This document shows, in pieces, positions 7,591-12,762 of a stretch of 64,000 bases of DNA (position 1 is the first letter of the stretch; each line of letters opens with the position of its first letter). The translations under genes were made by a program, and so were the position numbers. The stretch is from the NCBI GenBank assembly GCA_022827265.1, contig JAJDTF010000097.1, positions 1 through 64,000 of the forward strand, read 5' to 3'. This DNA comes from Acidimicrobiia bacterium (lineage in GTDB: Bacteria; Actinomycetota; Acidimicrobiia; Acidimicrobiales; Poriferisodalaceae). The notes beneath the pieces are model-generated. The model did no database searches. It saw only the letters and a program-made list of their open reading frames with translations, and was not told where the DNA came from.

Positions 7591-8412
7591 ATGTTCGACC
7601 GCTGGGATTCGCCCGACCGGTTCCACGTGCCGGACGATCCGCCAGACGTGCTGGGCTACCTGGGGCTCGCACTGTGCGAAGGGTTTCCGGGTGCGCTGAG
7701 AGCGTCCGACGCCCGTCAACGGGCACGCTGGATGCGCAGCTATGTCGACGTCACCACGACACGTGACCTCGACGAGTTCGGCTCAGGACGAGGCCGGCCG
7801 CGCAGCCCGAGCCGCTTCCGCCGCTATGTGCGGGCGTGCGCGCTGCACACGGCCGGTGCTGTGCCCGACAGCGCTCTCGCCGAGGCTGCTGACCTCGACC
7901 GCAAGACTGCGGCGGGGTATCACGACATCCTGGATGCCCAGCGACTCATCGTGGACACGCCGGCGTGGCGTTCCAACCGTCTGCGGCGCCTGACGAGCAC
8001 CCCCAAGCGGTACCTGTGTGACTCCGGACTCGCGGCATGGCTCGCACAGGTCGACTTCGACACTTCGCAACGTGACCCCGATGCGCGCGGTCGGCTGCTC
8101 GATACCTATGTCGCCGCCCAGCTGCGTGCCGAGGCGGAATCGTCGGACGTTCCCGTGTTCCTGCATCACCTGCGCAGCCAGCGAGGAGATCACGAAATCG
8201 ATCTCATCGCCGAATTCGGAGCCCGCGTGGCCGCATTCGAGATCAAGTCCGCCAGTGCGCCCTCGGTGAAGGATGCTCGGCATCTGATCTGGCTGCGCGA
8301 CAACCTGCCTGCCGATCAGTTCGCCGGGGGAGTCGTGCTGCACACCGGCCGTCACCGACGCTGGCTCGACCGAGACATAGAGGCGGTACCCATCGCAGCC
8401 CTCTGGGGATGA
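7591..8412 (+). pseudogene. C-terminal remnant of an AAA_14/DUF4143 ATPase (N-terminal ATPase domain missing)
   Basis: The 273-residue reading frame matches only the C-terminal part of the AAA_14-DUF4143 family. It has YLGLALCEGFPGALR, RWMRSYVDVTTTRDL, a helix-turn-helix-like segment around DRKTAAGYHDILDAQRLIVD, the LTSTPKRYLCDSGLAAWL signature, and a closing DUF4143 domain (GRLLDTYVAAQL, then DHEIDLIAEFGARVAAFEIK with a PD-D/ExK-like pattern). Full-length relatives carry about 150-200 N-terminal residues with Walker A and B motifs, which are absent here and upstream. It could be a relic, or a functional C-terminal-only product. It lies at the boundary of the mcrBC locus and its stop overlaps a potential upstream start of mcrB. 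Confidence 0.7.
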
Positions 8413-8482
8413 CGCAGCATTGCAGCAGCCGGACCCGGCCGAAGCGGCGCCAGCCGCCGAACGGCGTGTCGCGCCCCCGCTG

Positions 8483-8488
8483 TAGGTT
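8483..8488 (+). promoter_or_regulatory. Candidate -10 element (TAGGTT) for mcrB
   Basis: TAGGTT ends 7 bases before the ATG at 8496 and there is no Shine-Dalgarno sequence, which fits a leaderless mcrBC transcript. No good -35 was found at 16-18 bases. Confidence 0.35.
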
Positions 8489-8495
8489 CGCCGCC

Positions 8496-10628
8496 ATGAA
8501 CGAACGCCAATACTGGGATGGCCGTCTCGCGGACTACTTGCGCTGGCGGCGTGAGCAAGGCAAGGCCGAGGGCACTATTGACGACGACAAAGCGATCGTC
8601 GGGCAGTGGATCAGGTACACGCTCGACCAATCGGTTCAACCCGACGAGATCGATGAAGAACTCCTGCATCGCTGGGTCGCGGCTCACAAGAACCTGGCCC
8701 CCGACAGTCAGAACAGCTACCGGGCACATGTCAAGCCATGGTGGCGATGGAACCGAGACTTCCCGGCGGCCCGTGATGCCGACATCGGGGAGCAAGAGCA
8801 GTACGGCGGCGCTGCAATGTGGATGGAGCGGCTCAAGGAGTACGAGGATGTCCTGCGGTCTCAGGGCTTGGCCGAGAAAACAATCCGCATGGGGCACGGA
8901 AAACGAAAAAAATGGATCAAGCTGACGTGTGAAACCGGGCGTGACCCGGGGGTATGGGACGATTCGGCGTTTGAAGAGTACTTCGACAAGCACGAGACCG
9001 TGGAGACCCGGCGGCAACGCCAAGCCATTCAGAATCACATCAAGAAATGGTGCGATTACTGGAGTGGCCGTGGTGACGCTGAACAGGTCAGCTGCTGGGT
9101 CGTACGGGCAGGACGCGAGGGCGAGGCCGTCGAGTACAACCTCGCGAACGGCGTCGTGACGATCGGGTGGGGTGGCGTGCCCGAATTTGCGGAACTCGCG
9201 CATTGCGAGTCCCGTGAAGAATTCCGTGACCTCATCGACGAGCGACTTCCTGATTGGGCCGAGAAGGACAAGCGAAGTGCTCGCGAGCAGATCTGGCGAT
9301 TCGCGCGCGAAATCGAGTCCGGCGACCTCGTCGTCACGCCTCTGAAAGGGATGGAGCCCGGCGGAAACTCACTCGCTATCGGTCGGGTCGAAGGCCCGTA
9401 CGAGTTCGAGTTAGACGAGCCGGACGACATGCGGCAACGTCGCTCGGTCACATGGTTGCGCACCGGGATTGAGCGCGACGCCATCGGTGAAGATTTGCGC
9501 AATTCAATTGACACACCGATGACCGTCTTCGGCCTTCGCCGCCACGATGCCGCTCGCCGAATCCGTCATCTCGCGGAGCACGGCGTCGATCCGGGGGCTG
9601 GGTCCGCGCGTCGACGTCTCGCAGATGCGCTGGATGAGGCAGTCGAGCGATTGGGGAAGGCAGCGACGCACCTGCTGTGCCGGAAGGAGTTCCTCCGCGA
9701 TGTCGTGGCGCTGTTGGAGGACAAGGGGCAGGTGATCCTGTACGGGCCGCCTGGGTCCGGCAAGACGTACTTCGCTCGCCATCTGGCGTGGACGCTGCTG
9801 GGCATCGCTGATGACGATGAGTATGAGGACAACCCGCCGTACTCGTTGGTGCAGTTCCATCCTGCGTATTCGTACGAAGACTTCTTCGAGGGATTCCGGC
9901 CGCGGGTTGATGACGACGGTCAGATGACCTACAAGCTGACGCCGGGACCCCTTGTGAGGCTGGCCGAGCGAGCCGCCGATCATCCGGACGAACTGCACGT
10001 CATGGTCATCGACGAGATCAACCGTGCGAACCTGCCACGGGTGCTGGGCGAGTTGCTGTACCTGCTGGAGTACCGCGACGATTGGGCCCAGACGCAGTAC
10101 CGGCCGGACGACGGGTTCGAGTTGCCTTCCAACTTGTGGATCATCGGCACGATGAACACCGCAGACCGTTCGATCGCGCTGATCGACGCGGCAATGCGAC
10201 GGCGGTTCCACTTCGTGCCGTTCTTCCCAGATCGTGAGCCGACGGCCGGACTGCTGCGGCGCTGGTGCGAGCGGAATGAGCCAGGACAGGTGTGGATAGC
10301 TGACCTGCTTGATGCCGTTAACGAGCGGCTCCGCGATGATCTCGGGGGTGACTACATGCTGATCGGGCCGAGCCACTTCATGAAGAGCGACCTGGACGAG
10401 AACGGCTTGCGACGAATCTGGGAGTACAACATCGAGCCTCTCATCGAGGACCAGTTCTTCGGTCGGCAGGAGGTGATCGACAGCTATCGGTTTGGCGAAG
10501 TCTGGAAGCGTCATGGCCATGGTGCGGCTGGGCCGGCTTCGGAAATGGGAACGTCGGACGGGACCGGTGACGAAGCTGAGCCCGGATCCGACTACGAAGA
10601 GGGCCCCCAGAGCGACGGCGACTGGTAG
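8496..10628 (+). CDS. mcrB: McrB-type AAA+ GTPase with tandem integrase-like and Mrr-N/PUA-like N-terminal domains
   Basis: A 710-residue motor subunit of an McrBC type IV restriction system. Residues 1-90 and 105-195 each look like the SAM-like core-binding domain of tyrosine recombinases (YLRWRREQGKAEGTIDD ... SYRAHVKPWWRWNRD, then YEDVLRSQGLAEKTIR ... TRRQRQAIQNHIKKW), with no catalytic recombinase domain. Residues 198-355 resemble the Mrr N-terminal/EVE-PUA-like module (CWVVRAGREGEAVEY, VVTIGWG, SGDLVVTPLKG, AIGRVEGPYEF). Residues 395-670 are the McrB AAA+ core: Walker A GPPGSGKT (417-424), HPAYSYEDFFEGFRP, Walker B VMVIDEINRAN, and the family signature GTMNTADRS (551-559). The tail is acidic and low complexity. 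The ATG at 8496 was chosen because the 29 residues encoded upstream are not protein-like. The next gene follows its stop directly. The domain names are my pattern reading. Confidence 0.85.
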   Translation: MNERQYWDGRLADYLRWRREQGKAEGTIDDDKAIVGQWIRYTLDQSVQPDEIDEELLHRWVAAHKNLAPDSQNSYRAHVKPWWRWNRDFPAARDADIGEQEQYGGAAMWMERLKEYEDVLRSQGLAEKTIRMGHGKRKKWIKLTCETGRDPGVWDDSAFEEYFDKHETVETRRQRQAIQNHIKKWCDYWSGRGDAEQVSCWVVRAGREGEAVEYNLANGVVTIGWGGVPEFAELAHCESREEFRDLIDERLPDWAEKDKRSAREQIWRFAREIESGDLVVTPLKGMEPGGNSLAIGRVEGPYEFELDEPDDMRQRRSVTWLRTGIERDAIGEDLRNSIDTPMTVFGLRRHDAARRIRHLAEHGVDPGAGSARRRLADALDEAVERLGKAATHLLCRKEFLRDVVALLEDKGQVILYGPPGSGKTYFARHLAWTLLGIADDDEYEDNPPYSLVQFHPAYSYEDFFEGFRPRVDDDGQMTYKLTPGPLVRLAERAADHPDELHVMVIDEINRANLPRVLGELLYLLEYRDDWAQTQYRPDDGFELPSNLWIIGTMNTADRSIALIDAAMRRRFHFVPFFPDREPTAGLLRRWCERNEPGQVWIADLLDAVNERLRDDLGGDYMLIGPSHFMKSDLDENGLRRIWEYNIEPLIEDQFFGRQEVIDSYRFGEVWKRHGHGAAGPASEMGTSDGTGDEAEPGSDYEEGPQSDGDW

Positions 10629-11954
10629 ATGTCGATCGTCGATGGCGCTGTGCGGCCGGACGCCTCCGAGATGGTTCGTGAAGCGGGCGGGGATCATCGG
10701 ATCGTGCTTCATGAGTGGAGCACCGAGCGCTGGCGACTCGATGACGACATGGCGCGCCGCCTTGGGGAGACACCCTGGATCTCGGTAGCGACTGACCGAG
10801 AAGCTGGGTGGTGGAAGGTGTCAACCCGGCACTGGGTGGGTGCTTTCTCTCTGGGTGATCTGCGGGTCATCGTGCGGCCGAAGATCAGGCCCGAGAACTT
10901 GTTCTTGCTACTGGAAGTGGGGTTGCCGTTCGAGGCCTGGCAGGCCGAAGCGATCGACTACGCCGAGAATGACGAGCTGCTGCCGGCGCTGGTGTCGTTC
11001 TTCGCGCGAACCGCCGAGACCACGCTGGCACGTGGGCTGTTCCATCATTACCGGCGCGAAGAGGACGACCTGCTCGCGCTACGAGGGCGCATCGACTTCG
11101 TGCGGCAGTTACGGCGGAGCGGGGTGCTGGTGCCGATGGCTTGCTCGTGGGACGACTTCACCGCCGATGTGGACGAGAACCGCTGCTTGATGGCGGCCAT
11201 TCGGCTGGCTCTGCGTGTGCCGGACGTGCCGCACGATGATCGGCGGCGGCTTCGCCGACTGCTCGCTGCGCTCGACGGCGTAGCCGAACCGACAGCGTCG
11301 GTGGCGCTGGACCGCCTCGATCGTATCCAATACACCCGGCTCAACGAGCACTACCGGCCCGCATTGCGGCTGGCCCGGCTGATCCTGGCCAACTGCACCT
11401 TGCAGGACCTGCACGGCGACACTGCGGCGTCGGCGTTCATGCTGGACATGAACGAGCTGTTCGAGCAGTTCGTCACGTCACGCTTGCAGCGCGAATTGCG
11501 CGGGCGACTCGAAGTCAAGGCCCAGAGCCGGCCTCACCTCGACATCGATCAACGCGTGCAGATCAGACCGGATCTCACCTTTCGCCAATACAGCGAGACC
11601 CTCGGCGTTGCCGACCTCAAGTACAAACTCACGGATGCCGACTCGAGCGCAGCAGACGCAGTCGGGCCTCTTGCTCGACACGGCGACTATTACCAACTGC
11701 TGGCCTACACGACGGCACTCAACCTGCCTGAGGGCACGCTCATCTACTGCGCCGACGTGAACGAGAACGAAGCCGTCGAGCAACGGTTCCCGGATGGTTC
11801 GTTGGCCAAGTCCACAATCACCGTTCGGCACGCGGGAACGCAACTGCACACGATCGCCATCGACTTGTCTGGCAGCCCCAGCGACATCGATGCGCAGATC
11901 ACCGCCCTCGCCGAACATCTCGCGAGATCGGCGAAATGCTCAGTCGTCCCCTGA
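10629..11954 (+). CDS. mcrC: McrC-family PD-(D/E)xK nuclease subunit
   Basis: A 441-residue partner nuclease. The McrC N-terminal region (VIVRPKIRPENLFLLLEV) is followed by the YRREEDDLLALRGRID and DENRCL segments, the MNELFEQFV helix (274-282), and the PD-(D/E)xK active site: RPDLTF at 313-318 and VADLKYK at 327-333, with D315, D329 and K331 as likely catalytic residues, then GDYYQLLAY. The ATG abuts the mcrB stop codon with no gap, so translation is probably coupled. In known systems McrB recognises modified DNA and translocates by GTP hydrolysis while McrC cuts. Its last 15 bases overlap the end of the convergent VapC toxin gene. Confidence 0.9.
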   Translation: MSIVDGAVRPDASEMVREAGGDHRIVLHEWSTERWRLDDDMARRLGETPWISVATDREAGWWKVSTRHWVGAFSLGDLRVIVRPKIRPENLFLLLEVGLPFEAWQAEAIDYAENDELLPALVSFFARTAETTLARGLFHHYRREEDDLLALRGRIDFVRQLRRSGVLVPMACSWDDFTADVDENRCLMAAIRLALRVPDVPHDDRRRLRRLLAALDGVAEPTASVALDRLDRIQYTRLNEHYRPALRLARLILANCTLQDLHGDTAASAFMLDMNELFEQFVTSRLQRELRGRLEVKAQSRPHLDIDQRVQIRPDLTFRQYSETLGVADLKYKLTDADSSAADAVGPLARHGDYYQLLAYTTALNLPEGTLIYCADVNENEAVEQRFPDGSLAKSTITVRHAGTQLHTIAIDLSGSPSDIDAQITALAEHLARSAKCSVVP

Positions 11955-12353
11955 GTTCGCGCCGGGCGACGCTGTGTGGATGTCCAGAGCCGTGGCCGCG
12001 GCGAGTTGACGAGCGTCGTAGCTGACAAGACCAGCGAGGTCATCGCCGATCTCGAGGGCACAGGCGAGGCAGATGGCGTCGAGGGAACGCAGATGGCGAC
12101 CAGGCATTCGGCCCGCGGCGTCGAGCACCGATGTTGTCAAGTCGACCAAGTGCGTCTCGGCGAGCAGTCTTTCGCAGCGGTGTCGTGTCGCTGCGTCATC
12201 ATGTGCAAAGGCCCGTCGTGCTTCGGTGCGCAACAACGCGCTCGACGCAAGGAGGCGCTGCTGGACCCAGCGGCGCAGTTCAGTGGATTCGGCTTCCGGC
12301 CTGATGAGCTTGACGAAGGCAGATGCGTCAAGAACCCAAAGCTCACCGTTCAT
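11940..12353 (-). CDS. vapC: PIN-domain ribonuclease toxin (VapC family)
   Basis: A 137-residue PIN domain, the usual length for VapC. The acidic active-site set is visible: D9 (LDASAFVKL), E44 (RTEARRAF), D92 (SLDAICLACAL) and D113 (YDARQLAAA). VapC toxins cleave RNA, often tRNA, and are held inactive by the cognate antitoxin. The ATG at 12353 lies within the last 11 bases of the upstream antitoxin gene, so the pair is translationally coupled. It is convergent with mcrC and overlaps its 3' end by 15 bases. The target is unknown. Confidence 0.88.
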   Translation of the reverse strand: MNGELWVLDASAFVKLIRPEAESTELRRWVQQRLLASSALLRTEARRAFAHDDAATRHRCERLLAETHLVDLTTSVLDAAGRMPGRHLRSLDAICLACALEIGDDLAGLVSYDARQLAAATALDIHTASPGANSGDD

Positions 12354-12633
12354 CTCGACGCAGTTCTGCGAGTCGCTCGCTCCCGGTCAGCGTTCCTGGA
12401 GGGGCTGCGGGCAAGGGCGGCAGTTCCTCCAGTGCCGCGGCCAGGCCCCGTGCCCCGGGCTGTACGAGCCCGCGCCCGACGAGGCGCTCCAAAGGGTCGT
12501 CATCTTGCGGCAAGGGGCCGAGCAATGCGAGCGGTTTGCCGTGACGCGTGACCTCAAATGACTCACCGGCGCCCGCCCGGCGGAGCAGCTCGCCGCAATT
12601 GTGCAGCAACTGTGAAACGTTGATTCGTTCCAT
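12343..12633 (-). CDS. Phd/YefM-family antitoxin
   Basis: A 96-residue protein beginning MERINVSQLLHNCGELLRR, followed by a FEVTRHGKPLALLGP strand: the Phd/YefM DNA-binding fold (strand-helix-helix-strand with the typical HGKPxAxL turn). The Pro/Leu-rich C-terminal part (LEELPPLPAAPPG) should be the segment that threads into the toxin. The ATG at 12633 was preferred over the GTG nine bases upstream. It precedes and overlaps vapC. Such antitoxins normally autorepress their promoter; the operator was not identified in the 129-base upstream gap. Confidence 0.85.
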   Translation of the reverse strand: MERINVSQLLHNCGELLRRAGAGESFEVTRHGKPLALLGPLPQDDDPLERLVGRGLVQPGARGLAAALEELPPLPAAPPGTLTGSERLAELRRDER

Positions 12634-12762
12634 GCGTGCCACGGTAGCGACTGACGTCTCGGTGCCGTAATCGATTTTCGATGATCACCGGCCGCGGCGC
12701 TAGTGCAGACATTGGGAGCACGCAGCGGTACAGCACCTAACGTGCGAGCGGACCGATGCCCG

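Follow-up and report, generated by a model that had tools for sequence, protein, structure and literature searches.

We describe here an McrB-like protein that carries, in front of its GTPase domain, two domains of a kind otherwise belonging to tyrosine recombinases. It is encoded in a 64,000-nt stretch of Acidimicrobiia DNA (the whole of which we call the window) by an open reading frame at 8496-10628 on the plus strand, which begins with the ATG at 8496, closes with the TAG ending at 10628 and specifies 710 aa. Domain matches, together with an ortholog of identical order (L002), give the layout CB-CB-EVE/YTH-like-AAA+. By sequence profiles and predicted fold, residues 3-93 (CB1, 8502..8774, plus strand) and 103-193 (CB2, 8802..9074, plus strand) are four-helix core-binding (CB, SAM-like) domains of the tyrosine-recombinase type. 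We consider it rather likely that these two recombinase-derived domains, an EVE/YTH-like reader and the AAA+ domain make up one restriction protein, in which the CB domains would supply extra DNA contacts that aid the restriction of modified DNA.

Judged by its sequence, the locus belongs to the type IV (McrBC) restriction systems, and modification-dependent, GTP-driven cleavage is predicted for it. The AAA+ McrB GTPase-type domain (residues 398-673, 9687..10514, plus strand) matches AAA_5 (E 1.6e-20) and contains the Walker A, Walker B and Nx(xx)D signatures of McrB proteins (GPPGSGKT at 417, VMVIDEIN at 502 and MNTADRS, an NxxD motif, at 553). The start of an McrC gene abuts the McrB stop (10629..11954, plus strand, 441 aa; PF10117, E 2.5e-53), and its product has the PD (314-315) and DLKYK (329-333) elements of a PD-(D/E)xK nuclease. 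The closest solved relatives of the window McrB are the McrB proteins of Thermococcus gammatolerans and E. coli (phmmer E about 1e-37 against the E. coli structures). The locus shares with E. coli K-12 McrBC the AAA+ domain with its MNTADRS signature and the adjoining McrC with its PD-(D/E)xK motif, but E. coli McrB begins with an ADAM/DUF3578 reader where the window protein has CB-CB-EVE/YTH-like. The T. gammatolerans protein likewise places a PUA-superfamily (YTH-type) reader ahead of the AAA+ domain; unlike in the window McrB, CB domains have not been described in it.

Translation from another in-frame ATG, at 8409, would yield a protein of 739 aa. We disfavor it because the 30 nt directly 5' of 8496 (8466..8495, plus strand) are near-identical in four relatives (L002, L003, L043 and L046), in which the DNA further upstream mostly differs, and because the upstream frame is closed by a stop in one relative. 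This leader is possibly a promoter or a leaderless start. The ATG at 8409 is overlapped by the stop of a gene for a 273-aa DUF4143 protein (7591-8412), for which only the C-terminal half of the best PADLOC model, PDC-S01, was matched. That gene is not a fixed partner: its end is kept in L002, but other DNA lies upstream in L003, L043 and L046. Directly downstream of McrC, on the minus strand, genes for a PIN-domain protein and a Phd/YefM-like antitoxin form a VapBC-like pair (11940-12642).

The two N-terminal repeats are divergent copies, 23% identical to each other. In a small set, blastp aligns one with the other at E about 2e-4, and independent relatives are matched by each repeat with E-values between 1e-8 and 1e-13. 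An alignment of 26 CB copies (A1), whose rows were gathered with profiles built in this analysis, has W7, P49 and W82 invariant; strong scores to its own rows arise by construction and were not counted as evidence. The Pfam family most frequently matched by these copies is Phage_int_SAM_1 (12/26, best E 0.0011), and the whole McrB of one relative matches it with 28.9 bits, above the cut-off of 22.3. Among PDB sequences, the informative matches of the CB profile come from the N-terminal domains of integrases (3nrw, 5vfz and 2kd1), and in whole genomes the profile matched 12 recombinases over the full domain, with E-values between 3e-5 and 2e-8. Of these, all six from the class have a Phage_integrase (PF00589) catalytic domain, and those from the phylum have the HxxR box. 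In hhalign, A1 aligned with the CB domains of 11 recombinases, which had been retrieved with A1 and are thus a set selected for similarity, at 98.6% probability over 86 columns, compared with 0.03-9.3% for 20 column-shuffled controls and 0.5% for the recombinase catalytic region; orthologs of CB1 alone reached 95.8% and those of CB2 alone 88.0%. Because of that selection, the PDB and Pfam matches and the fold comparisons matter.

The AlphaFold model of residues 1-198 (mean pLDDT 84.8) has four helices in each repeat; with a pTM of only 0.48, it does not predict how CB1 and CB2 are placed relative to each other. VIA-align matched the model to XerD (Z 11.8, 83 residues, 2.4 A), the Brujita integrase (5vfz, Z 11.1), an integron integrase (2a3v, Z 10.6) and XerA (Z 10.0), and the top 21 rows hold recombinases or N-terminal domains of integrases, except for a structural-genomics protein in row 15 that cannot be assigned to a family by its title. 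Recombinases score Z 7-12 and the first other fold 5.5. The best of these alignments use CB1, which has the four-helix SAM-like CB fold by its structural Z-scores; CB2 is assigned from its predicted helices and its sequence homology to the CB family. Foldseek gave weak E-values (about 1) with probabilities of 0.89-0.99 for integrases and XerA, and a BFVD fold search returned weak matches only, phage integrases among them. Small all-helical folds do score middling in structural comparisons, and the Foldseek E-values alone would be weak, but we reject as highly improbable the idea that these segments are generic helical bundles resembling CB domains by chance, given that the profiles pull true recombinases from whole genomes at full domain length, that hhalign separates A1 so widely from its shuffled controls and that the recombinases stand clear of every other fold in VIA-align.

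A preliminary description of this DNA had proposed two tandem core-binding domains that lack the recombinase catalytic domain, and on both points the present data agree with it: profiles, hhalign and predicted fold all return the core-binding fold rather than an unrelated one, and Pfam finds no PF00589 match in the window McrB, which is thus not a whole tyrosine recombinase. The CB domains of XerD, XerA and the Brujita integrase share with those described here the four-helix fold over 82-87 residues, the profile similarity and a basic helix 4. Those proteins have a catalytic domain, whereas the present CB domains do without one, are joined to a restriction GTPase or to RAMA and form a separate clade. 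The proposal that the two domains clamp DNA was overstated, since the C-shaped clamp of recombinases requires the catalytic half as well as the CB domain.

Structure prediction indicates that residues 199-365 (9090..9590, plus strand; PADLOC PDC-S02) have an EVE/YTH-like fold of the PUA superfamily. The model of residues 196-372 (pLDDT 83.8, pTM 0.82) is structurally similar to 2p5d (Z 10.5), PH1033 (10.4), YTHDF2 (10.0) and the EVE domain of VcaM4I (8.8), and Foldseek adds Atu2648 and YTHDC1 at probabilities of 0.96-0.97 and, weakly (E 0.47), the N-terminal domain of T. gammatolerans McrB (6p0f), which has been described as 6mA-sensing (PMC7897488). With EVE-like and YTH proteins as its matches, it is plausible that this predicted fold reads a modified base. 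The region had earlier been called Mrr-N/EVE-PUA-like; the EVE/PUA-like half of that name fits the predicted fold, and we drop the Mrr_N half, as a Pfam search of the window protein up to E 1 gave no hit to PF14338. The family is matched in the relatives L016, L018 and L049.

The assembly holding the window is 3.8 Mb, and the nearest relatives of its McrB in sequence are from Acidimicrobiia MAGs. A survey of McrB homologues, as the preliminary description had suggested, recovered the same N-terminal layout in L002 and a range of variants within the class, in which CB-McrBs have either one to three N-terminal CB copies or one that is C-terminal of the AAA+ domain. Two copies with another segment between them are found in L003 and L043, a single copy in L046, CB-EVE-AAA in L048, three copies before EVE-AAA in L044 and L045 (each with an upstream ORF bearing two more), an EVE ORF followed by CB-AAA in L047, and a CB domain after the AAA+ domain in L012, L018, L022, L026 and L049; the domain is absent from the other McrBs of the class. 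CB matches occur in 16/395 class genomes, a sample that includes some genomes that also supplied profile rows: eight have a CB-McrB, two only RAMA-fused or solo CB domains, and six recombinases. No McrB-fused CB domain appeared outside the class at E<=1e-6 in a phylum sample, where the other matches were recombinases, and no CB-McrB relatives were found in viral contigs with three protein queries or in plasmids or phages by tblastn. CB domains of the same subfamily are also fused to RAMA, a domain linked to restriction, in L081, L083 and L084. Type IIG-like methylase genes adjoin the fusions in L081 and L084, with a PLD-SNF2 helicase gene in L081, and the neighbors in L083, judged by sequence starts, resemble those of the other two. 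These associations tie the CB domain to restriction loci beyond McrBC.

Several of these loci have features of their own. In L044 (8840-12589) and L045 (8676-11951) the CB-only ORF and the CB-McrB ORF share a reading frame and are divided by a single TGA, which both genomes retain (TGA CAG); the intervening sequence is poorly conserved, which makes two genes likelier than readthrough. In L047 (9351-11498) an in-frame TAA splits the EVE-like from the CB-AAA part of an EVE-CB-AAA order, where relatives read on. The window's own genome has a second CB ORF, a solo CB-like one of about 100 aa (L086, 9729-10034) near a contig end and adjoining a toxin-antitoxin-like gene pair. The McrBs of L003, L026, L043 and L046 have an extra N-terminal segment (LVAEFR..GYPSD..., about 200 aa) with no Pfam match, apparently present twice in L046. 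The McrB frame of L007 (1-6921) spans 2307 codons and runs off the locus, Pfam matching only a C-terminal AAA+ domain, and in L023 (4516-10395) a tandem pair of McrB-like genes lies ahead of a single McrC.

In a tree, all non-recombinase CB domains fall on one side of the 11 recombinases (branch support 100/99). This is consistent with one capture from a tyrosine recombinase, followed by duplication and shuffling, with capture from other sources also possible, as the recombinases in the tree are only those near the CB profile. Within the extra ORF, the two CB copies are 81% and 90% identical to each other in L044 and L045, respectively, and 63-67% identical between the two genomes, which suggests that they were recently duplicated or homogenized.

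In recombinases the CB domain binds the recombination site (PMC8138268), and in XerH the N-terminal, CB-containing half enters the major groove and makes most of the sequence-specific base contacts (PMC5241119). By analogy, the most likely role of the CB domains here would be to tether the McrB hexamer to duplex DNA through binding in the major groove; we infer DNA binding from the predicted fold and from helix 4. The helix charges of McrB-type CB domains resemble those of recombinases, with helix 3 acidic and helix 4 basic, the latter keeping a conserved SY..HIR.W pattern. In the mechanism we propose, helices 2 and 4 would enter the major groove in the manner of Xer proteins and integrases, CB1 and CB2 would serve as a second and third DNA contact per protomer (about 12 CB domains per hexamer), and these contacts would increase affinity or add sequence context. 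The EVE/YTH-like domain would meanwhile inspect a flipped modified base, and GTP-driven translocation would then lead to cleavage of the modified foreign DNA by McrC.

Against this tethering model we count that the N-terminal CB domains fused to McrB are acidic on balance (mean -3.7, compared with 0 in recombinases) and are isolated from a catalytic partner, with which recombinase CB domains usually work; alone they may bind weakly. The same acidity, the flexible position of the CB domain on either side of the AAA+ domain and the part that CB domains take in subunit contacts within recombinase tetramers would suit modules that no longer bind DNA and instead mediate protein-protein contact or oligomerization, in McrB assembly or with a host or phage recombinase complex. 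We think this unlikely, though it is the strongest of the competing explanations: helix 4 stays basic with its conserved pattern, and CB domains are fused to nucleic-acid readers (EVE/YTH-like and RAMA) in unrelated restriction loci. Somewhat more doubtful is the broader notion of the recombinase CB as a portable, copy-variable DNA-reading module of McrBC and RAMA/type IIG-like loci that would provide site-specific targeting in place of targeting by modification alone. More improbable again is that the CB domains are sequence-specific readers aiming the nuclease at mobile-element sites (integration or dif-like sites), with modification a secondary cue. The base-specific contacts of XerH (PMC5241119) would fit such a role, and the divergence of copies within one protein (about 23-40% identical) would suit different sites, but we found no site motif, and an EVE/YTH-like reader is kept beside the CB domain in several layouts.

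Type IV restriction systems diversify through reader-domain swaps. The claim that known McrBs place one recognition domain before the AAA+ domain does not hold, since a census of 34,000 McrBC members describes many fused domains (PMC11090510) and the McrB-family protein PcdA has two EVE domains (PMC10602043). These proteins share with the window McrB an McrB-family AAA+ domain bearing several N-terminal fusions, and the texts of both papers make no mention of an integrase or core-binding domain. Tandem CB domains in one protein are likewise known, from the RitA recombinases, transposable-element enzymes that keep the catalytic domain that the window McrB lacks (PMC8138268). The integrase domains of a GmrSD paper are not a precedent, being genomic neighbors rather than fusions. 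What appears to be new is the CB-McrB fusion, of which we found no description in the main texts of the open-access papers searched, an absence that is weak evidence. As for the layout, we found no described McrB family that has it, but it is not a one-off, since copies and positions vary within the family.

If our reading is correct, an integration-enzyme domain of mobile elements has been reused repeatedly in the systems that destroy them. It would then represent a specificity module of a new class, and its history would be a clear example of one opponent co-opting a part of the other. Furthermore, since the copy number varies from one to three per McrB and CB-only ORFs also occur, the target of each copy should be testable with small soluble domains.
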